DNA of 64,000 nt from a virus. Shown here piece by piece: positions 79 to 29,454 of the stretch. Each line of letters begins with the position of its first letter. Within the stretch, counting starts at the first letter, position 1. The stretch spans positions 1 to 64,000 of the IMG/VR virus record IMGVR_UViG_3300008108_004834; one strand, written 5' to 3'. The position numbers and the translations under genes were made by a program. The notes beneath the pieces were generated by a model. It had not been told where the DNA came from, did no database searches, and worked only from the letters and a program-made list of their open reading frames with translations.

Positions 79-98
79 GGGGAGCAATCCCCTTTCTT
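79..98 (+). terminator. Hairpin with T-rich tail before the tRNA cluster
   Basis: GGGGA, a GCAA tetraloop and TCCCC are followed by TTTCTT. This looks like an intrinsic terminator for whatever enters from the left, or a processing hairpin in front of the first tRNA. The GNRA-type loop recurs in other hairpins of this window. Confidence 0.6.
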
Positions 99-171
99 GT
101 CCGTGTAGCCCAATGGAAGAGGCAATAGACTAAGGATCTATTTGTTGGAGGTTCGATTCCTCTCACGGACA
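99..171 (+). tRNA. tRNA with anticodon AAG (Leu-type), short variable loop
   Basis: The acceptor GTCCGTG/CACGGAC closes perfectly, the anticodon stem ATAGA/TCTAT closes loop CTAAGGA (anticodon AAG, reading CUU) and the T arm has TTCGATT. The variable region is only five bases (TTGTT), so the molecule is class I shaped, although bacterial tRNA-Leu normally has a long variable arm. The discriminator is A. The 5' half resembles the tRNAs at 212 and 911. Confidence 0.75.
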
Positions 172-200
172 TTGACTTTCTTGAGTATCTCTGGTATTCT
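172..200 (+). promoter_or_regulatory. Sigma70-type promoter in the tRNA cluster
   Basis: TTGACT, a 17-bp spacer and TATTCT lie directly after the first tRNA and before the second. The -35 starts one base after the tRNA 3' end. Confidence 0.55.
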
Positions 201-211
201 AAAAGTCTTAT

Positions 212-284
212 GGGAGTGTAGCCCAACGGCAGAGGCGGTAGGCTTAGAACCTATACAGTGGAGGTTCAAATCCTCTCACTCCTA
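212..284 (+). tRNA. tRNA-Leu(TAG), short variable loop
   Basis: Acceptor GGGAGTG/CACTCCT has a G-T first pair. The anticodon stem GTAGG/CCTAT closes CTTAGAA, giving anticodon TAG (CUA and other CUN codons). The T arm is GGAGG TTCAAAT CCTCT and the discriminator is A. The variable region is five bases, unusual for leucine. Acceptor and D arm are nearly identical to the tRNA at 911, so the two are paralogues. Confidence 0.8.
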
Positions 285-286
285 TT

Positions 287-304
287 GCCAGTTTCTTGAC
301 TGGC
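287..304 (+). other. Inter-tRNA hairpin
   Basis: GCCAGT, a six-base loop and ACTGGC form a perfect short hairpin immediately after tRNA-Leu(TAG). Similar small hairpins lie in several tRNA spacers and may be processing signals; that role is inference. Confidence 0.45.
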
Positions 305-313
305 ACAAGGCAC

Positions 314-342
314 TTGACTCTTCGGTTCAAATGCCTTATATT
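314..342 (+). promoter_or_regulatory. Sigma70-type promoter upstream of the HNH gene
   Basis: TTGACT, exactly 17 bp, TATATT. It lies 43 bp before the HNH start codon and would drive that gene and the tRNA-Met behind it. Confidence 0.6.
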
Positions 343-384
343 AGATGAGTGGTTGAGTTCTATTAAACGCATTTATTATGTAAA

Positions 385-804
385 ATGGTCATTTGTAAAT
401 CCTGCGGTAAAGAAGTTCCACAACACCCCAAAAAAGGTGGAAGAGCAAAACTTTATTGTGACGAAACTTGCCGCCAAAAGTGGCGTTACAGAAATGATCC
501 ATCTATTATGAATAGAAACACTTACACTGAACAAAAAGAAAGAGCATATTCCAACAAATGGAAAACACTTCAATATAAAGGTGGTAAGTGCCAACAATGT
601 GGCGAAGATAGACCAGCAACTTTATGCTTTCATCATAGAGATCCTTCTCAAAAAGAACTAAAACTTGATGGAAGATCTTTTGCAAATAGAAAATGGGAAA
701 CTATTAAAGAAGAAGTAGATAAATGCGATCTTCTTTGCCATAACTGTCATCATATATTACATTATGGCAACAGTTGGGGAGAGTTTCTACAAACGCTGGT
801 TTAG
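385..804 (+). CDS. Free-standing HNH homing endonuclease
   Basis: A 139-residue protein with an N-terminal zinc ribbon (CKSCGKEV, then YCDETCRQKW) and a C-terminal HNH-type fold: CQQCGE, CFHHRDP and CDLLCHNCHHILH at about residues 71-126. These are the metal-binding pairs and histidines expected of HNH nucleases. It sits between tRNA genes, a usual place for homing endonucleases, and its stop codon TAG (802-804) falls inside the following tRNA-Met. The target site cannot be read from this sequence. Homing is inferred from family and location. Confidence 0.8.
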   Translation: MVICKSCGKEVPQHPKKGGRAKLYCDETCRQKWRYRNDPSIMNRNTYTEQKERAYSNKWKTLQYKGGKCQQCGEDRPATLCFHHRDPSQKELKLDGRSFANRKWETIKEEVDKCDLLCHNCHHILHYGNSWGEFLQTLV

Positions 805-867
805 CTCTCTGGCGAAAGCACTGCCCTCATAAGGCAAGATAGGTCGGTTCGATCCCGACAACCAGCA
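795..867 (+). tRNA. tRNA-Met(CAT) or tRNA-Ile2
   Basis: Acceptor GCTGGTT/AACCAGC pairs fully, loop CTCATAA gives anticodon CAT, the T arm is GTCGG TTCGATC CCGAC and the discriminator is A. The paired 1:72 position speaks against an initiator. Elongator Met and lysidine-modified Ile cannot be told apart here. The first ten bases overlap the HNH gene, whose stop codon is tRNA bases 8-10. Confidence 0.85.
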
Positions 868-868
868 C

Positions 869-897
869 TTGACAATCTCAGTGATATATACTATGAT
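869..897 (+). promoter_or_regulatory. Consensus sigma70-type promoter in the tRNA cluster
   Basis: TTGACA, 17 bp, TATGAT, between tRNA-Met and tRNA-Leu(TAA). It is one of the strongest matches in the window. Confidence 0.75.
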
Positions 898-910
898 TGT
901 CTTGGTTTAA

Positions 911-983
911 GGGAGTGTAGCCCAGCGGAAGAGGCAGTGGACTTAAAATCCATACAGGGTGGGTTCGAATCCCACCACTCCTA
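911..983 (+). tRNA. tRNA-Leu(TAA), short variable loop
   Basis: Acceptor GGGAGTG/CACTCCT, anticodon stem GTGGA/TCCAT closing CTTAAAA (anticodon TAA), T loop TTCGAAT, discriminator A. The whole gene is 73 bases with no long variable arm. It is a close paralogue of the tRNA at 212. Confidence 0.8.
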
Positions 984-987
984 CTTT

Positions 988-1061
988 GCCGAAGTAATCC
1001 AATTGGTAGAGGTGTCCGACTCAAAATCGGAATGTTGTGGGTTCGAATCCCACCTTCGGTA
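988..1061 (+). tRNA. tRNA-Leu(CAA), short variable loop
   Basis: Acceptor GCCGAAG/CTTCGGT matches from memory the acceptor stem of enterobacterial tRNA-Leu(CAA) except for the last base. The anticodon stem TCCGA/TCGGA closes CTCAAAA (CAA). The discriminator is A. The variable region is five bases instead of about fifteen, so the Leu acceptor sits on a class I body. Only four bases separate it from the preceding tRNA. Confidence 0.8.
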
Positions 1062-1062
1062 T

Positions 1063-1078
1063 TGGAGAGTAATCTCCA
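1063..1078 (+). other. Inter-tRNA hairpin with GTAA loop
   Basis: TGGAGA, GTAA and TCTCCA form a perfect stem with a GNRA-type tetraloop between two tRNA genes. Confidence 0.45.
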
Positions 1079-1083
1079 CAATT

Positions 1084-1171
1084 GCCAGTCAGAACAGGTG
1101 TTCAGAGGAGTCTTATAAACTCTTTCCGCCAGATTAGCGGCTTTGGGAGGGTTCGATACCCTCGGCTGGTA
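1084..1171 (+). tRNA. Atypical long-arm tRNA with anticodon TAT
   Basis: Acceptor GCCAGTC/GGCTGGT, anticodon stem GGAGT/ACTCT closing CTTATAA (anticodon TAT, reading the Ile codon AUA), T arm GAGGG TTCGATA CCCTC. The 23-base variable region holds a CCGC/GCGG stem, so the molecule is class II, the shape of Leu, Ser and Tyr tRNAs. The D arm is abnormal: a four-pair stem with a four-base loop and A at position 8. It may be a mutated Leu or Ser tRNA or a decaying gene; its charging cannot be predicted. Confidence 0.55.
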
Positions 1172-1189
1172 TTCCATCGGCAGATGGAA
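1172..1189 (+). other. Inter-tRNA hairpin
   Basis: TTCCATC, GGCA and GATGGAA form a perfect seven-pair hairpin directly after the long-arm tRNA. Confidence 0.45.
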
Positions 1190-1263
1190 AGGCGAATTTG
1201 AGTGATGCATCACTTAGACAAGCCTGGAACAATTATCTAAGGTTCGATTCCCTGGCTCTGGTG
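1190..1263 (+). pseudogene. Possible tRNA remnant with T loop
   Basis: The segment holds a 14-bp palindrome (AGTGATGCATCACT, 1201-1214), then a T-loop-like TTCGATT and a 3' end CTCTGGTG identical to that of the next gene, tRNA-Trp. I could not build a full cloverleaf: the T stem has an A-C mismatch and no matching 5' acceptor strand is seen. A decayed or partly duplicated tRNA fits; an odd functional tRNA is not excluded. Confidence 0.3.
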
Positions 1264-1290
1264 AGTTAGATAAAAGTTCCTGAATTTCTT

Positions 1291-1363
1291 ATCAGAGTAG
1301 CTCAATTGGTAGAGCAGCGGTCTCCAAAACTGAAGGTTGCAGGTTCAAGTCCTGTCTCTGGTG
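1291..1363 (+). tRNA. tRNA-Trp(CCA)
   Basis: Acceptor ATCAGAG/CTCTGGT, D arm with GGTAGAGC, anticodon loop CTCCAAA (CCA), T arm GCAGG TTCAAGT CCTGT, discriminator G as expected for Trp. Confidence 0.85.
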
Positions 1364-1367
1364 CCTT

Positions 1368-1439
1368 GCCCTGGTAACTCAGTGGAAGAGTGCTTCGCTA
1401 CGAACGAAGAAGACGGGGGTTCGAATCCCTCTCAGGGTG
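1368..1439 (+). tRNA. tRNA-Arg(ACG)
   Basis: Acceptor GCCCTGG/TCAGGGT, anticodon stem CTTCG/CGAAG closing CTACGAA (ACG, normally read as inosine), T loop TTCGAAT, discriminator G. It follows tRNA-Trp after four bases. Confidence 0.85.
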
Positions 1440-1440
1440 C

Positions 1441-1469
1441 TTGACTTTGAAAAAAGTCATATATATAAA
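1441..1469 (+). promoter_or_regulatory. Sigma70-type promoter with an inverted repeat
   Basis: TTGACT, 17 bp, TATAAA. The -35 is part of an imperfect hairpin (GACTTT, GAAA, AAAGTC). It would drive tRNA-Ser and the genes behind it. Confidence 0.6.
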
Positions 1470-1473
1470 GAAT

Positions 1474-1558
1474 GGAAGGGCAATCCGATTGGCGACGGAA
1501 CCTGTCTTGAAAACAGTTGAGTGTAAAAGCCTTGGGGGTTCGACTCCCCCTCCTTCCG
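1474..1558 (+). tRNA. tRNA-Ser(TGA)
   Basis: Acceptor GGAAGGG/TCCTTCC, anticodon stem CCTGT/ACAGT closing CTTGAAA (TGA), a long class II variable arm, T arm GGGGG TTCGACT CCCCC, discriminator G. At 85 bases it has the normal size for tRNA-Ser, showing that this phage does use long variable arms where expected. Confidence 0.85.
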
Positions 1559-1560
1559 TT

Positions 1561-1573
1561 GCTCCTTGTGAGC
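1561..1573 (+). other. Inter-tRNA hairpin
   Basis: GCTC, CTTGT, GAGC between tRNA-Ser and tRNA-Thr. Confidence 0.35.
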
Positions 1574-1577
1574 ATAT

Positions 1578-1651
1578 GCCTCCGTAGCTCAGCTGGATAG
1601 AGCAGGGTTTTTGTAAAGCTCAGGTCGCAAGTTCAAGTCTTGTCGGGGGCT
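1578..1651 (+). tRNA. tRNA-Thr(TGT)
   Basis: Acceptor GCCTCCG/CGGGGGC, anticodon stem GGGTT/AGCTC closing TTTGTAA (TGT), T arm GCAAG TTCAAGT CTTGT. The discriminator would be T1651, which is also the first base of the next promoter's -35. Confidence 0.8.
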
Positions 1652-1679
1652 TGACAATCTAAGATGAATGTCTTATGAT
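1651..1679 (+). promoter_or_regulatory. Consensus sigma70-type promoter in the tRNA cluster
   Basis: TTGACA, 17 bp, TATGAT, the same hexamers as at 869. It lies between tRNA-Thr and tRNA-Gly. Confidence 0.75.
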
Positions 1680-1687
1680 TGTTAGAT

Positions 1688-1759
1688 GCGGATTTAATTC
1701 AGTGGTAGAATGGCTGCCTTCCAAGCAGTTCGTCAGGGGTTCGAATCCCCTAATCCGCT
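1688..1759 (+). tRNA. tRNA-Gly(TCC)
   Basis: Acceptor GCGGATT/AATCCGC, anticodon stem GCTGC/GCAGT closing CTTCCAA (TCC), T arm closing TTCGAAT, discriminator T as in bacterial tRNA-Gly. Confidence 0.85.
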
Positions 1760-1760
1760 C

Positions 1761-1777
1761 TTGGAGTTTAACTCCAA
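1761..1777 (+). other. Inter-tRNA hairpin
   Basis: TTGGAGT, TTA and ACTCCAA form a perfect seven-pair hairpin between tRNA-Gly and the second CAT tRNA. Confidence 0.45.
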
Positions 1778-1781
1778 TTTA

Positions 1782-1856
1782 TGTGGGGAAGTGTAGTGGT
1801 TGCACAGGAGTCTCATAAGCTCCAGGTTGGTGGTTCGATTCCGCCCCCCGCCACCA
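1782..1856 (+). tRNA. tRNA-Met(CAT), possible initiator, CCA encoded
   Basis: Anticodon stem GGAGT/GCTCC closes CTCATAA (CAT); T arm GGTGG TTCGATT CCGCC. The acceptor pairs at six positions, but base 1 (T) faces C at position 72. An unpaired 1:72 position is the hallmark of bacterial initiator tRNA. The three G-C pairs usual in initiator anticodon stems are absent, so the initiator call is tentative. ACCA at 1853-1856 is encoded, unlike in most tRNAs of the cluster. Confidence 0.7.
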
Positions 1857-1860
1857 ACAT

Positions 1861-1933
1861 TCCCTTATAGCTCAATTGGCAGAGCACGGAGCTGTTAACT
1901 CTGGGGTTCCTGGTTCGAGTCCAGGTGGGGGAG
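1861..1933 (+). tRNA. tRNA-Asn(GTT)
   Basis: Acceptor TCCCTTA/TGGGGGA, anticodon stem CGGAG/CTCTG closing CTGTTAA (GTT), T arm CCTGG TTCGAGT CCAGG, discriminator G. Confidence 0.85.
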
Positions 1934-1935
1934 TC

Positions 1936-1947
1936 GGTAGAAATACC
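1936..1947 (+). other. Inter-tRNA GNRA hairpin
   Basis: GGTA, GAAA, TACC between tRNA-Asn and the aberrant tRNA-like gene. Confidence 0.4.
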
Positions 1948-1949
1948 AA

Positions 1950-2021
1950 CCTCTGGTAGTCTATTGGTAAGGACAGGCAGACAATGCACTTGGAAACTAG
2001 GTTCGATTCCTAGACAGGGGA
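1950..2021 (+). pseudogene. tRNA-like gene with broken anticodon arm
   Basis: The acceptor CCTCTGG/ACAGGGG pairs at six of seven positions, the D stem GTCT/GGAC is good and the T arm CTAGG TTCGATT CCTAG is perfect. The middle (1976-1996) does not form a five-pair stem with a seven-base loop, and no T33 gives a readable anticodon. Length and outer arms are normal, so it is probably a decayed tRNA, or one that needs an unusual fold. Confidence 0.45.
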
Positions 2022-2024
2022 AAT

Positions 2025-2096
2025 GGGCGATTAACTCAGCGGTAGAGTGCCTCCTTTACACGGAGATGGTCACTGGTTCGAATCCAGTATCGCCCA
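2025..2096 (+). tRNA. tRNA-Val(TAC)
   Basis: Acceptor GGGCGAT/ATCGCCC, anticodon loop TTTACAC (TAC), T arm ACTGG TTCGAAT CCAGT, discriminator A. It is the last tRNA of the main cluster. Confidence 0.85.
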
Positions 2097-2100
2097 CTTA

Positions 2101-2108
2101 TATAAATA
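2101..2108 (+). promoter_or_regulatory. T4-type late promoter box before dps
   Basis: TATAAATA, the exact T4 late consensus, 27 bp before the dps start codon (box start to ATG). Confidence 0.75.
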
Positions 2109-2127
2109 CTTCAAAAAAAGAAGTATA

Positions 2128-2562
2128 ATGGAAAAACTGTATAAATTACTTAGTGATGTTCAGTCATCACTTTTTGTTTTGTTTCATAAAACTTGGGTAT
2201 TCCATTGGAATGTGGTTGGGGAAGATTTCACTCAACTACATCAACTCTTTGGTGGTCAATACGAAACAATGTTTGAAGAGATTGATCGTCTCTCTGAACA
2301 TATGAGATACTTAAATATTAAACCTCTGAGTTCCCTTTCAAGAATGCTTGAAGTAACTCAGATTCAAGAAGCAGCAAGTTCAACTACATCAGATTCTATG
2401 ATTACTGAACTTTTAGAGAATAATAATAAACTTTGTGAATTGTTGTCTGATATTTCAGAAGAAGCAGAATCTCAAAAGTCTTATGCAACTGCGAATCTTG
2501 TTCAAGACTTGATGGAATCTCACGGAAAATTTATTTGGCAATTAAGATCACATTTACAATGA
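2128..2562 (+). CDS. dps: Dps-family ferritin-like protein
   Basis: A 144-residue protein with the Dps signature FHWNVVGEDFTQLH at about residues 25-38, followed by a four-helix pattern. Dps proteins form 12-subunit shells that oxidise and store iron and protect DNA from peroxide. Against the usual ferroxidase site, H26, H38, D53 and E57 are present, but the aspartate expected four residues after H38 is glycine (G42). The start at 2128 follows a weak Shine-Dalgarno (AAAGAAG) and a perfect late box, so it is probably expressed late. It may guard phage DNA from oxidative damage; iron oxidation may be weakened. Confidence 0.85.
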   Translation: MEKLYKLLSDVQSSLFVLFHKTWVFHWNVVGEDFTQLHQLFGGQYETMFEEIDRLSEHMRYLNIKPLSSLSRMLEVTQIQEAASSTTSDSMITELLENNNKLCELLSDISEEAESQKSYATANLVQDLMESHGKFIWQLRSHLQ

Positions 2563-2575
2563 AAGGATTAGTAAA

Positions 2576-2827
2576 ATGATTTCAATAAGATGCAAAGATT
2601 GCAATAAAGAATTATCAGGAAATAATACAAAGATTGCTTCCTGTGGTTGCCCGAATATGGCAACAATTAATGGAGATAAAATCTCTGCGGTTGATTTGTC
2701 TCGTATTGTAATGTTAAATTCACTTCAGACAAAAGCAAAATCTTCAGTTCTCACAAATGATGACATTATGTGGCAAGAACAACGTCGCCAACGTAAAGTA
2801 AAGAGATTAGATTTTGAAGTTCGTTGA
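2576..2827 (+). CDS. Small zinc-ribbon protein, unknown function
   Basis: An 83-residue protein beginning with CKDC and later CGC (about residues 6-25), a likely metal-binding knuckle, followed by a charged helical half ending in RRQRKVKRLDFEVR. It starts 13 bases after dps and is probably co-transcribed. I do not recognise a function. Confidence 0.7.
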   Translation: MISIRCKDCNKELSGNNTKIASCGCPNMATINGDKISAVDLSRIVMLNSLQTKAKSSVLTNDDIMWQEQRRQRKVKRLDFEVR

Positions 2828-2969
2828 GAACTTTTAGAATCCAATATTTGTAGGTCTTTTTTGGTAATTAATGATACCAATACTTTGTTAATGTTATAGA
2901 ATAAACATAAAATATTAACGTCTTGGTATTGGATATTATTATATAATAGTAATCTATCTAAAAAATCAA
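2828..2969 (+). other. Intergenic region with inverted repeats
   Basis: It contains CCAATAC and GTATTGG arms enclosing GTTAAT and ATTAAC arms (about 2875-2932), able to form one long nested hairpin, then TATAAT at 2942-2947 without a good -35. It could be a terminator or transcript-end structure after the dps pair plus a weak start for the next genes. Confidence 0.35.
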
Positions 2970-3119
2970 ATGGACCAACATACTTACGATAATTGGGTCC
3001 GTATTAAAGAGACTTTTGAAAAGTCTGGAAATACCAATAATATGTTTTATAAGAGAGCGTGTGAGATTATAAAAACTAAAAGAGACCCATTGGCAAAATT
3101 TCTTGGAGATGAAAAGTGA
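2970..3119 (+). CDS. Small hypothetical protein (49 aa)
   Basis: The frame reads MDQHTYDNWVRIKETFEKSG to FLGDEK. It is soluble and charged, without a recognised domain. Its TGA overlaps the GTG start of the next gene (GTGA), which supports real translation. Confidence 0.6.
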   Translation: MDQHTYDNWVRIKETFEKSGNTNNMFYKRACEIIKTKRDPLAKFLGDEK

Positions 3120-3319
3120 CGAAAACACAAGATGAATTGATTACTCGTTTTGAAGTTCAGGAGATGATTGATGCAGCAATACGAAGACATAACCGCAATG
3201 CTTCTATCATTAGTATGTGCGTCGGTTGGGTGGTGCTTGCTCTATTTGCTGAGGGACTATTAAGACTTATTGGTGTTATTCCACCACTATTACCCTGGCT
3301 CAAAATTACTTTAAACTAA
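3116..3319 (+). CDS. Small membrane protein (67 aa)
   Basis: GTG start overlapping the previous stop. An acidic N-terminal helix (about 1-28) is followed by one strong hydrophobic segment, ISMCVGWVVLALFAEGLL, and a second apolar stretch at the C-terminus, so one or two membrane passes. The stop TAA overlaps the next ATG. Confidence 0.65.
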   Translation: MTKTQDELITRFEVQEMIDAAIRRHNRNASIISMCVGWVVLALFAEGLLRLIGVIPPLLPWLKITLN

Positions 3320-3432
3320 TGGTTCACATTACAGAAGAAGACATAAAAGATCTTTTGCAAAGAGTATTCTTCAAAAAAATGGAAGAACTCTTTGAAGAAC
3401 CATCAACATACGAGGACGAAGAAGATGTTTAA
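3319..3432 (+). CDS. Small acidic protein (37 aa)
   Basis: MVHITEEDIKDLLQRVF to YEDEEDV. It is translationally coupled on both sides: its ATG shares a base with the previous stop and the next ATG lies within its end. No domain is recognised. Confidence 0.5.
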   Translation: MVHITEEDIKDLLQRVFFKKMEELFEEPSTYEDEEDV

Positions 3433-3502
3433 AACAGTCTTGACAGTAGCAGTCATATATACTACAATTATTGGGTTATGGATCATCACATATCCGCAAT
3501 GA
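3425..3502 (+). CDS. Very small membrane protein (25 aa)
   Basis: MFKTVLTVAVIYTTIIGLWI is a single membrane span. It overlaps both neighbours by a few bases (ATGA at 3499). A sigma70-type promoter (3440-3468) lies inside it. It may be a real microprotein or only a leader. Confidence 0.45.
   Translation: MFKTVLTVAVIYTTIIGLWIITYPQ
3440..3468 (+). promoter_or_regulatory. Sigma70-type promoter before tRNA-Pro
   Basis: TTGACA, 17 bp, TACAAT, inside the 25-residue gene. It would drive the next small membrane protein, tRNA-Pro and the antitoxin-like gene. Confidence 0.6.
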
Positions 3503-3630
3503 TTTTTCGCATCGTAGAAGCATTAGCAGCAAATCCATTTTTCCTTTTTCTTTGTGGATTTGGATTGACAATTGTTCCTTTTCTTGGTATTATGTACATA
3601 CATTCAAAAGAAACAGACTCCGGGCATTAG
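3499..3630 (+). CDS. Small membrane protein (43 aa) ending inside tRNA-Pro
   Basis: MIFRIVEALAANPFFLFLC to HSKETDSGH, with one long hydrophobic span (about 10-34). Its TAG stop (3628-3630) is bases 8-10 of the tRNA-Pro gene, as with the HNH gene and tRNA-Met. Confidence 0.5.
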   Translation: MIFRIVEALAANPFFLFLCGFGLTIVPFLGIMYIHSKETDSGH

Positions 3631-3694
3631 CGCAGTTTGGTAGCGCGTTCCGTTTGGGGCGGAAAGGTCATAAGTTCAAATCTTATATGCCCGA
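3621..3694 (+). tRNA. tRNA-Pro(TGG)
   Basis: Acceptor CGGGCAT/ATGCCCG, anticodon stem TTCCG/CGGAA closing TTTGGGG (TGG), T loop TTCAAAT, discriminator A. It stands about 1.5 kb from the main tRNA cluster. Confidence 0.9.
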
Positions 3695-3711
3695 CTCATA
3701 AAACTTACTTT

Positions 3712-21521: not shown

Positions 21522-22217
21522 ATGAAAGTAGATCTGCATAATTTCTTTAAGCATTATGATGAAAACAACCCAAATCATATTGCTTCAGTAGAAAAACTGG
21601 AAGAAGCACTTGCAAATAAGCAACCTGAATTACTTGAAGACATTGCAGACTGGGTTATCACCTATAGAAAGAAACCTTCTGTTCCTGGAATTCTAAACGT
21701 TCCTTTCTACCCACAAACAGATAATTATAGGGATGCTCAACGAACCTGTAATTCATCTGCTTGTGCTATGTGTCTAGAGTATTTTAAACCAGGCACTTTA
21801 AAAGGGGTAAAAGGAGATGATACCTACATTCAAAAGGTATTCTCAGTTGGTGATACAACAGATCATTCGGTTCAAACCAGTGTTCTCAATTCTTATGGGA
21901 TTAAGTCTGGGTTTAAGTATAATCTTGGGTTTTCTGATCTTGATCGTGAGCTTGCTGCTGGGAGACCCGTTGTTATCGGTATCTTGCATCGCGGTACTTT
22001 ATCTGCTCCTACTGGTGGTCATATGCTCGTAGTGATTGGAAAGAAAGGTGATGATTATGTTGTTAATGACCCTTATGGATCTTTGAATGATGATTACACT
22101 GGCCCAGTGACAAATGGCAAAGGTGCTGTGTATAAGAGATCTGATCTTGAGTATCGTTGGTTGGAACGCGCAAAAGATAAGACCGGTTGGGGCAGAATCT
22201 TTGATGCAAAAAAGTAG
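21522..22217 (+). CDS. C39-family cysteine peptidase (frame 0 of a frameshift endolysin)
   Basis: 231 residues. An N-terminal helical part (1-50) is followed by a papain-like C39 fold: FYPQTDN (Q65), RTCNSSACAMC (probably C76), GGHMLVVIG (H167) and VVNDPYG (D183), the catalytic order Q, C, H, D of peptidase C39_2. It would cut a peptide bond, plausibly in cell-wall crosslinks. The frame ends GCA AAA AAG TAG; A AAA AAG is a classic -1 slippery heptamer. The -1 frame continues as a lysozyme, so this is probably both a stand-alone peptidase and the N-terminal part of a 388-residue fusion. A late box precedes it. Confidence 0.85.
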   Translation: MKVDLHNFFKHYDENNPNHIASVEKLEEALANKQPELLEDIADWVITYRKKPSVPGILNVPFYPQTDNYRDAQRTCNSSACAMCLEYFKPGTLKGVKGDDTYIQKVFSVGDTTDHSVQTSVLNSYGIKSGFKYNLGFSDLDRELAAGRPVVIGILHRGTLSAPTGGHMLVVIGKKGDDYVVNDPYGSLNDDYTGPVTNGKGAVYKRSDLEYRWLERAKDKTGWGRIFDAKK

Positions 22218-22247
22218 AAAGTTCTATTCCGCAAGTAGGAATAGAAC
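22208..22247 (+). promoter_or_regulatory. Programmed -1 ribosomal frameshift signal
   Basis: Slippery A AAA AAG (22208-22214) in frame with the peptidase, then TAG, a six-base spacer, and a perfect ten-pair hairpin: GTTCTATTCC (22221-22230), seven-base loop, GGAATAGAAC (22238-22247). All elements are seen directly. Spacing and stem length match known signals such as E. coli dnaX. Confidence 0.85.
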
Positions 22248-22687
22248 TCATCAAAAAATATGAACAATGTAAACTTGCAGTATATCCAGATCCCAAAACT
22301 AAGGGAAAACCATACACTGTTGGTTGGGGAAGTACTCGTAAGAAAGATGGAAGTCCCTTTAAATTGGGAGAAAGGATTACACGACAAGAAGCAGATGAGT
22401 TATTTGATTGGCAGATTCAAAATGAATTCCTTCCGTCACTTTCAAAAATTCCATATTGGGAGGAAATGAATGACAATCAAAGAGGGGCTTTACTTTGCTT
22501 TGCTTACAATCTTGGTGCAGATTTCTATGGTAGTCCTTACTTTACGACACTTACAAGGGTCTTGAAAAATAAAGAGTGGAATAAGGTTCCTGATACACTT
22601 TGTCTTTATAGAGATCCCGGAACAGATGTAGAAGAGGGATTGCTAAGAAGAAGAAAGGAAGAAGGTGCTTTATGGGCCAAAAAATAA
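22214..22687 (+). CDS. GH24 lysozyme domain reached by -1 frameshift
   Basis: 157 residues in the -1 frame. LIKKYEQCKLAVYPDP and YTVGWGST give the T4-lysozyme-type triad Glu (about 17), Asp (26) and Thr (35), and NQRGALLCFAYNLG with RRRKEEGALW the C-terminal helices. The enzyme cleaves the glycan strand of peptidoglycan. No ATG or GTG precedes the catalytic glutamate in this frame; the frame opens only at 22205 after a TGA, and the first TTG (22364) is behind all three active-site residues. Expression therefore seems to need the frameshift from the peptidase gene, giving a two-domain endolysin. Confidence 0.85.
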   Translation, partial: VESSIPQVGIELIKKYEQCKLAVYPDPKTKGKPYTVGWGSTRKKDGSPFKLGERITRQEADELFDWQIQNEFLPSLSKIPYWEEMNDNQRGALLCFAYNLGADFYGSPYFTTLTRVLKNKEWNKVPDTLCLYRDPGTDVEEGLLRRRKEEGALWAKK

Positions 22688-26427: not shown

Positions 26428-27510
26428 ATGACTGCTACAATTGCTTCACGCCGTTCTGGCGAAAACCTCTGGGAATCTTTCTGCCAGTGGATTACTTCAA
26501 CCGATAACCGTCTTTATGTTGGTTGGTTCGGTGTTCTAATGATTCCGACGTTGCTTGCTGCGACTACTTGCTTCATTATCGCATTCATCGGTGCTCCTCC
26601 TGTGGACATTGATGGCATTCGTGAACCAGTCGCTGGTTCTCTGATGTACGGAAACAACATCATCTCTGGTGCCGTTGTTCCTTCCTCTAATGCTATCGGA
26701 CTTCACTTCTATCCTATCTGGGAAGCAGCGAGTCTTGATGAATGGCTTTACAACGGTGGGCCTTTCCAACTTGTTGTATTTCACTTCCTGATTGGCATTT
26801 ATGCTTACATGGGACGTGAATGGGAACTCTCTTACCGTCTAGGTATGCGTCCTTGGATCTGCGTTGCTTACAGTGCTCCTGTTGCTGCTGCTTCTGCTGT
26901 ATTCCTGGTCTATCCTTTCGGTCAAGGTTCTTTCTCTGATGCAATGCCTCTTGGTATTAGTGGAACTTTCAACTACATGCTTGTTTTCCAAGCAGAACAC
27001 AATATTCTGATGCACCCCTTCCACATGCTTGGAGTTGCTGGTGTGTTCGGTGGTTCTCTGTTCTCTGCGATGCACGGTTCGCTTGTAACCTCTTCGCTGG
27101 TTCGTGAAACTACTGAGAACGAGTCACAGAACTATGGTTATAAGTTCGGTCAAGAAGAAGAGACCTACAACATTGTTGCTGCTCATGGTTACTTTGGTCG
27201 TCTTATCTTCCAATATGCTTCGTTCAACAACTCACGTTCACTTCACTTCTTCCTTGCTGCCTGGCCCGTTGTAGGCATCTGGTTCACTGCTCTTGGTGTT
27301 TCCACGATGGCATTCAATTTGAATGGCTTCAACTTTAACCAGAGCATCACTGATAGTCAGAACCGTGTAGTAAATACTTGGGCTGATGTTCTAAACCGTG
27401 CTGGACTCGGATTAGAGGTGATGCATGAGAGAAACGCACACAACTTTCCTTTGGACCTTGCTGCTGTTGAGAACACACCTGTTGCCTTGACTGCTCCAAC
27501 CATCGGTTGA
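26428..27510 (+). CDS. psbA: Photosystem II reaction-centre protein D1
   Basis: 360 residues, uninterrupted, with the five membrane helices and ligands of D1: [15 protein letters not shown] (His for P680 and iron), [29 protein letters not shown] and the C-terminal metal-binding [14 protein letters not shown], after which the tail is processed. The phage protein has one extra N-terminal residue; at the position called 130 in host D1 it has Glu (YMGREWELS), as in high-light D1 forms. It replaces damaged D1 during infection to keep photosynthesis running. No intron is seen. Confidence 0.98.
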
Positions 27511-27606: not shown

Positions 27607-27972
27607 ATGAAAACTTGTAGCAGATGCGGGCAAACAAAAGAACTTGATGGGTTCTCTAAAAGAAGCAGCAGACCTTCTGGTGTTCAATCAAAGTGTAAGG
27701 ACTGTGAACGGGAAGTTCGTAGGCAGTACTATAAGACCCACGAATATGCCAGACGTAGATTTAAACTTACTGAAGACCAATATAATGACCTGATGAAAAA
27801 TGAGAAATGTCAAATATGTAATGTAGAACTAACAAAGAAATGTATAGACCACTGCCACTCTACAAATAAGGTTCGTGGTGTTCTCTGCAATAACTGCAAC
27901 ACGGCTCTTGGTCTTGTAGGAGATAATATAGATACCTTACAAAAAATGATTCAATATCTAAATGTCTCATAA
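27607..27972 (+). CDS. Endonuclease VII-like free-standing homing endonuclease
   Basis: 121 residues. An N-terminal zinc ribbon (CSRCGQ and CKDCER), then CQICNVELTKKCIDHCHSTN and RGVLCNNCNTALGLVGDN, the core of the recombination-endonuclease-VII family. A free-standing homing endonuclease, F-CphI, is known downstream of psbA in the cyanophage S-PM2; this gene has the same location. It probably promotes spread of the psbA region between phages. Confidence 0.85.
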   Translation: MKTCSRCGQTKELDGFSKRSSRPSGVQSKCKDCEREVRRQYYKTHEYARRRFKLTEDQYNDLMKNEKCQICNVELTKKCIDHCHSTNKVRGVLCNNCNTALGLVGDNIDTLQKMIQYLNVS

Positions 27973-28392: not shown

Positions 28393-29454
28393 ATGGTTTC
28401 ATCAACGCTCACACAACCTATTTCACGGAGAGGATGGTTTGATGTCTTGGATGACTGGCTTAAACGAGATCGCTTTGTCTTTGTGGGTTGGTCTGGATTA
28501 CTTCTTTTTCCCACTGCTTATCTGGCCCTTGGTGGCTGGCTTACTGGCACAACGTTTGTTACTAGTTGGTACACCCACGGGTTGGCGTCTTCTTACCTTG
28601 AGGGCGCTAATTTCCTCACAGCAGCTGTGTCAACGCCTGCTGATGCTATGGGTCATTCTCTTCTTCTACTTTGGGGCCCTGAGTCTCAAGGGGATTTCGT
28701 CAGGTGGTGCCAACTTGGCGGACTCTGGCCTTTTGTGGCACTCCACGGGTCTTTCGCTCTAATTGGATTCATGCTTCGTCAGTTTGAGATTGCTCGTCTG
28801 GTAGGCATCCGTCCTTACAATGCAATCGCATTCTCTGGTCCTATTGCCGTATTCGTTTCTGTATTCCTGATGTATCCACTGGGTCAATCCAGTTGGTTCT
28901 TTGCTCCCTCCTTTGGAGTCGCAGCAATCTTCAGGTTCCTTCTGTTTCTTCAGGGTTTCCACAACTGGACCCTCAACCCCTTCCATATGATGGGAGTTGC
29001 TGGTATACTGGGTGGAGCACTGCTCTGTGCCATTCACGGAGCAACTGTAGAAAACACTCTATTTGAAGATGGTGAACAAGCAAACACATTCAAGGCATTT
29101 GAACCTACCCAGGAAGAAGAAACCTATTCAATGGTTACTGCAAATCGTTTCTGGTCACAGATCTTTGGTATCGCTTTTAGTAATAAGCGTTGGCTGCATT
29201 TCTTTATGCTTTTCGTCCCTGTTATGGGGCTTTGGACCTCTTCAATTGGTATTATTGGGCTTGCTCTTAATCTTCGTGCTTACGATTTCGTAAGTCAGGA
29301 GATTCGTGCCGCAGAAGATCCTGAGTTTGAAACGTTCTATACAAAGAACATTCTTCTGAATGAAGGACTTCGTGCTTGGATGGCACCAGTAGACCAACCA
29401 CATGAACAATTTGTATTCCCTGAGGAAGTTCTTCCAAGAGGCAATGCACTGTGA
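28393..29454 (+). CDS. psbD: Photosystem II reaction-centre protein D2
   Basis: 353 residues with near-universal D2 blocks: [57 protein letters not shown] (P680 and iron His), [12 protein letters not shown] and the end [12 protein letters not shown]. Normal full length. With D1 it forms the photosystem II core; cyanophages carrying psbD usually also carry psbA. The stop overlaps a GTG of the next small gene. Confidence 0.98.

Follow-up and report, generated by a model that had tools for sequence, protein, structure and literature searches.

Introduction

The dnaX gene of E. coli (tau/gamma) combines an A AAA AAG slippery heptamer with a downstream hairpin, and slippage there gives the short product. 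In tailed phages, −1 frameshifting is well known, mainly from tail chaperone and capsid genes (PMC3483164; PMC7260188). In the G/GT tail-assembly-chaperone frameshift of dsDNA phages (Xu, Hendrix and Duda 2004, as cited in PMC3483164), an XXXYYYZ heptamer, which is A AAA AAG in some of these phages, lies at the upstream stop, a −1 extension follows, and two products are made from one start. Mycobacteriophage Ms6 LysA is made in two forms via an internal in-frame start, its authors only suggesting frameshifting, at a GTGA joint upstream (PMC3111421), and CD27L and CTP1L are mentioned in PMC7260188 as endolysins with two forms that arise in the same way. A slippery site between the two lysin frames of Sabazios was sought by its authors, who found none (PMC7260188). 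Lysins figure among the genes that the authors of PRFect list as having a known frameshift, and the references of that paper include Shearman 1994 (PMC10885494), on the lysin of a Lactococcus phage that is spread over two overlapping genes, which possibly sets a precedent for lysin frameshifting. In cyanophages, the same or related domains occur within one protein as C39-GH24 (ACG-2014f), GH24-C39 (S-CREM1) and C39-GH19 (S-N03); these are fusions without frameshifting and by default give no free peptidase.

The cyanophage locus analysed here, a putative programmed frameshift between a C39-like peptidase and a GH24 lysozyme, resembles the G/GT system in its heptamer at the upstream stop, its −1 extension and its two predicted products from one start. 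It differs in that the gene encodes a lysis enzyme, the fusion adds a second catalytic domain, and a strong hairpin is present in nearly every relative; moreover, tail assembly chaperones are found beside the tape-measure gene, whereas the two frames here encode C39 and GH24 enzymes. Heptamer and downstream hairpin are shared with dnaX, but the slip would give the long rather than the short product. The likeness to Ms6 LysA and to CD27L and CTP1L lies in a long and a short form from one lysin gene, those systems differing in that the second start sits inside one frame and no change of frame is involved. The Lactococcus phage lysin likewise spans two overlapping frames, in a different host and presumably with a different enzyme.

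Materials and Methods

The window is the whole stretch of DNA that was analysed, 64,000 nucleotides of a 79.8-kb virus record. Relatives were gathered by four IMG/VR scans (three with C39 queries and one with the lysozyme) and by blast against phage records. Each scan contributed its best 80 matches; the 275 sequences in the junction analysis are thus a sample of nearest relatives rather than a census, and one contig may occur more than once among them. Junctions were read by script, and identical 75-nt junctions were collapsed to one. The hairpin of the window was folded with RNAfold and compared with shuffled sequences.

Results

The junction between peptidase and lysozyme

The features of the locus and its surroundings are listed in Table 1.

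Table 1. Positions of the lysin locus, its candidate frameshift signal and other features of the window.
Feature	Coordinates	Strand	Remarks
Array of 14 tRNA genes	98..3695		no Lys tRNA among them
C39-like cysteine peptidase	21522..22217	+	231 aa; zero-frame product; PF13529
Slippery heptamer A AAA AAG	22208..22214	+	in phase with peptidase frame
GH24 lysozyme part	22214..22687	+	−1 frame, read from G22214; 157 aa plus stop; PF00959
Zero-frame stop TAG	22215..22217	+	directly 3' of heptamer
Candidate stimulator hairpin	22220..22248	+	11 pairs, 7-nt loop, 5 nt past heptamer; 22220-22230 pair with 22238-22248
First standard start (TTG) in −1 frame	22364		beyond Glu17, Asp26 and Thr35 of lysozyme part
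Lysozyme stop TAA	22685..22687		
psbA	26428..27510		intact; translation read
Endonuclease VII-type gene	27607..27972		PF02945; immediately 3' of psbA
psbD	28393..29454		intact; translation read

The peptidase consists of an N-terminal LHNFF module (approximately residues 1-50), to which no Pfam name applies, followed by a peptidase domain that matches the Pfam model Peptidase_C39_2 (1.3e-11, 45.6 bits against a cut-off of 24). It carries the Cys, His and Asp residues C76, H167 and D183, which together with Q65 are invariant in 83 of 83 relatives. A fold search returned papain/C39-like peptidases as distant matches only, and a search of solved structures with the C39 sequence gave no match. The lysozyme part matches the Pfam model Phage_lysozyme (2.6e-18, 67 bits, cut-off 22.3) as well as solved lysozymes (for example 9kbq, 4e-11), and its Glu/Asp/Thr triad (E17, D26, T35) is invariant in all 80 complete relatives. 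From these domains and from PHROG lysis families, an endolysin activity is predicted.

The peptidase frame ends GAT GCA AAA AAG TAG, and the −1 frame is open only from 22205, just upstream of the heptamer. Where the two frames overlap lies an in-phase XXXYYYZ heptamer, the A AAA AAG of the original prediction. That prediction also proposed a full GH24 lysozyme in the −1 frame with its triad intact and no usable start before it, which agrees with our reading: in the window's lysozyme frame the catalytic Glu is not preceded by any ATG, GTG or TTG. The predicted fusion, 231 + 157 = 388 aa, has the anticipated length. The hairpin proposed at the same time is present but needed correction, since the ten pairs given at 22221-22247 are the inner ten of 11 and the stem begins five, not six, nucleotides after the heptamer. 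Its energy of −15.2 kcal/mol compares with −3.2 ± 1.9 for shuffled sequences (z −6.5), none of 200 being as good. The heptamer by itself was dropped as evidence, because A AAA AAG is common in the window (49 copies against 46 expected); proof must rest on the combination of elements and on their conservation.

Conservation of the signal

At least 83 distinct junctions of the frameshift type were found among IMG/VR contigs and sequenced phages, S-PM2 included. In all 83 the lysozyme is in the −1 frame, and the heptamer is A AAA AAG, in phase, in 81 and T TTT TTT in two; no in-phase A AAA AAG occurs elsewhere in the 83 frames. The zero-frame stop follows AAG directly in 74 junctions and after one or two codons in the remaining nine. 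The codon that supplies the first base of the heptamer is GCA in 39 cases, GTA in 38, ACA in two, and ATA and GAA in one each, so that its wobble base is A in 81 of 81, against 33% of the upstream Ala, Val and Thr codons of the same genes. An SD-like stimulator some 10 nt upstream, as in signals of the dnaX type, is not a part of this one: in 75 of the 83 junctions, the 20 nt upstream of the heptamer lack any SD-like 4-mer.

A hairpin lies approximately 4-8 nt downstream in nearly all of the 83 junctions. Stems are mostly of 8-16 pairs and begin a few bases past the heptamer, starts tabulated at 2-3 nt being due to outward extension by weak pairs. The stem reached p ≤ 0.02 against dinucleotide shuffles in 71 of 81 junctions, compared with a median p of 0.37 in the group whose lysozyme starts at an overlap with the peptidase stop (two AAG TGA loci, L018 and L019, sat in this overlap group for the test and are of the frameshift type in the final count). 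A few junctions, such as L029 and L216, have weak stems with p about 0.2.

The structure is conserved by compensatory change. Complementarity is kept across 56 distinct 5' arms and 50 distinct 3' arms, and at wobble positions of the 3' arm one and the same pair is seen as A-U, U-A, G-C or C-G, depending on the phage. When arms were swapped among junctions, the native pairing sum of 2054 compared with a maximum of 1483 in 20,000 permutations, a test that ignores relatedness. Wholly different stem families occur (AGTTCTATTCC/GGAATAGAACT; GCCAACTAAC/GTTGGTTGGC; CAACACCAC/GTGGTGTTG; GTCCCACTAC/GTAGTGGGGT), and the pairing is therefore not explained by a common protein motif. The expectation that heptamer, stem and −1 phase would be kept in relatives was thus borne out in 83 distinct junctions.

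The two T TTT TTT junctions belong to the S-CAM7 group and have a hairpin of their own. C39 relatives with GH19 partners and other C39 relatives (S-N03, S-CREM2, PSS2, 15 IMG/VR loci and five genome contigs) contained neither an A AAA AAG nor a T TTT TTT junction.

Other layouts of the locus

The fused protein also occurs naturally as a single frame, in ACG-2014f and in at least nine IMG/VR loci, and in S-CREM1 the domains are fused in reverse, GH24 then C39 (L005 1436-2617). In DSL-LC02/03 and in at least 25 further distinct IMG/VR N-termini, the lysozyme is encoded by a gene apart and begins with a second copy of the peptidase's LHNFF module (MARIDLHNFFKFYDEKNPNHVKAV..., phmmer 1e-13 to 1e-15), after which comes an Ala/Pro linker; two-gene lineages of this kind are L006, L007 and L139-L193. 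Another group combines an ATGA overlap with a different N-terminal stretch (MTIKFIDAV...). At least nine junctions, of the S-SRM01 type, have the heptamer together with an ATGA or GTGA overlap that gives the lysozyme a start; in these loci (L002 2188-2210, which is S-SRM01, L196-L207 and L228) the heptamer is retained and the hairpin mostly gone. Naked lysozymes were seen in the S-SRM01 type, L151 and L137. In most layouts the lysozyme has an N-terminal extension, which is the LHNFF module in the fusion, the frameshift and one two-gene layout. The module looks like a shared targeting domain. Because the two-gene lineage duplicates it, while fusion and frameshift supply a single copy, it is probably useful to the lysozyme, perhaps in anchoring or substrate access.

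In a C39 tree of 95 rows, whose root is arbitrary and whose bootstrap was not settled, the T TTT TTT junctions fall inside the clade of in-frame fusions (100/100 for the ten rows), apart from the A AAA AAG group, a placement most simply read as a second origin of the signal or as repeated fusion. In the same arbitrarily rooted tree, A AAA AAG lineages repeatedly show separate-gene and overlap layouts. The layout of the locus is changeable, and frameshifting is dispensable to the family, given relatives in which the lysozyme has a start or lies in a separate gene. Relatives with a continuous frame or a lysozyme start, named beforehand as a finding that would count against frameshifting, thus do exist; they occur in other lineages, from which the signal is mostly absent, and do not make it accidental.

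The fused frame of ACG-2014f (L008 2023-2060; also L299, L300 and L302) contains A AAA AAG, a 5-nt spacer and a GGAGGG/CCCTCC hairpin. The core junction is identical in the four isolates read, and a −1 slip there would lead at once to TGA. This signal could release free peptidase from the fused gene, in a manner resembling the inverted logic of dnaX. It may also be a relic, given that fused cousins have no heptamer and that the fold is unusual to no more than a moderate degree (z −2.6). The GGAGG, followed by TTG, could be an internal start.

Discussion

We suggest with high confidence, from the sequence and its conservation, that the locus is a programmed −1 ribosomal frameshift encoding a 231-aa peptidase alone and a 388-aa two-domain endolysin. 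Most ribosomes would end at the TAG and release the free peptidase. In some, halted for a time by the hairpin while AAA and AAG, the two Lys codons, occupy the P and A sites, the tandem Lys-tRNAs would slip from AAA AAG to AAA AAA; these ribosomes would read GTA next and continue into the peptidase-lysozyme fusion. Both products would act in lysis: the fusion would be an endolysin with two activities, directed at glycan strands as well as at peptide bonds, and the lone peptidase would be its more abundant partner. We infer that slippage takes place in the host, at a rate that would set the dose of each form, and that both products have a role in lysis.

The same two products could in principle arise from transcriptional slippage, in which bases gained or lost at the A-run through RNA polymerase would put some of the mRNA into the fused frame before translation. 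We consider this very unlikely. A homopolymer is indeed present, and at the T TTT TTT junctions eight T stand in a row, but the A-run is exactly six in 80 of 81 junctions and never above seven, shorter than the runs usually needed for such slippage. Nor would slippage by the polymerase require a covarying downstream hairpin or a fixed spacer.

Alternatively, the lysozyme might be translated by itself, either through termination-reinitiation or from a non-standard start close behind the peptidase stop, in which case the hairpin would be incidental or would tune reinitiation. The ATGA and GTGA overlaps do supply a start in some relatives (L002, L196-L207 and L228), and 36 of the 83 frameshift-type junctions have some ATG, GTG or TTG in the lysozyme frame, this being ATG in only four. 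However, the other 47, the window's included, have no such codon before the catalytic Glu and still keep the phase of the heptamer and the hairpin, and it is the overlap group that has mostly lost the hairpin. A separate lysozyme start as a general rule was rejected on these 47 junctions, and we regard production of the lysozyme alone as extremely unlikely at the frameshift-type loci, where the conserved downstream protein mostly lacks a start of its own. A sequencing error or a decayed gene, with the true sequence in one frame or the lysozyme a pseudogene, could not have been ruled out from a single window, and public annotations do treat the 3' part as a fragment, but the extra base once considered as a possible artefact is excluded by a −1 phase that recurs across many independent contigs (83 distinct junctions) and in separately deposited isolate genomes (S-PM2 and three S-CAM7 records), and both explanations were rejected on this conservation and on the invariant triad.

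Cyanophage endolysin genes thus very probably contain a conserved recoding signal, judged by comparison among relatives, and frameshifting appears to be used by a common group of picocyanobacterial viruses in their lysis enzyme, with which an infection ends. The mechanism is known, and its conserved use in an endolysin appears to be undescribed. Our literature search found no report of such a frameshift in a cyanophage lysis gene; it covered subscription papers thinly, and priority is accordingly uncertain. The remark in the original prediction that no phage endolysin was known to be made in this way agrees with this search as regards cyanophages, and may need qualifying more generally in view of the lysins that PRFect counts among frameshift genes.

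The reading predicts a two-product endolysin at a fixed ratio, and the natural variants of the locus (frameshift, fusion, overlap, and separate genes with a duplicated module) offer a way to ask why two products are kept. As a tentative possibility, though one we take seriously, cyanophages may need a set ratio of free peptidase to fusion for timed lysis, and selection may have built the signal more than once: the main group would use A AAA AAG, the S-CAM7 group T TTT TTT, and ACG-2014f possibly an inverted form like that of dnaX. The frameshift reading would also correct the annotations of S-PM2 and S-CAM7, in which the lysozyme is a fragment of 72-90 aa without the catalytic residues. Such fragments also look to be what at least one endolysin family of PHROG was built from, namely phrog_10457 (95 aa).

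The window belongs to a cyanomyovirus, judging by its psbA and psbD, the photosystem II core genes, by a PstS-like phosphate-binding protein, by ferredoxin-like and transaldolase-like genes and by its 14 tRNAs. As the tRNA array holds none for Lys, host tRNA would have to read the slippery Lys codons, barring a Lys tRNA gene elsewhere in the genome. The Endonuclease VII-type gene next to psbA is possibly its homing endonuclease. The lysin locus has a peroxiredoxin-like gene and an SNase-like gene as neighbours in the window. In relatives, a gene near the lysin locus (L002 814-1245; L009 812-1240) is named NAD synthetase or homing endonuclease/GIY-YIG protein, depending on the record, and these conflicting names are an inherited misannotation.
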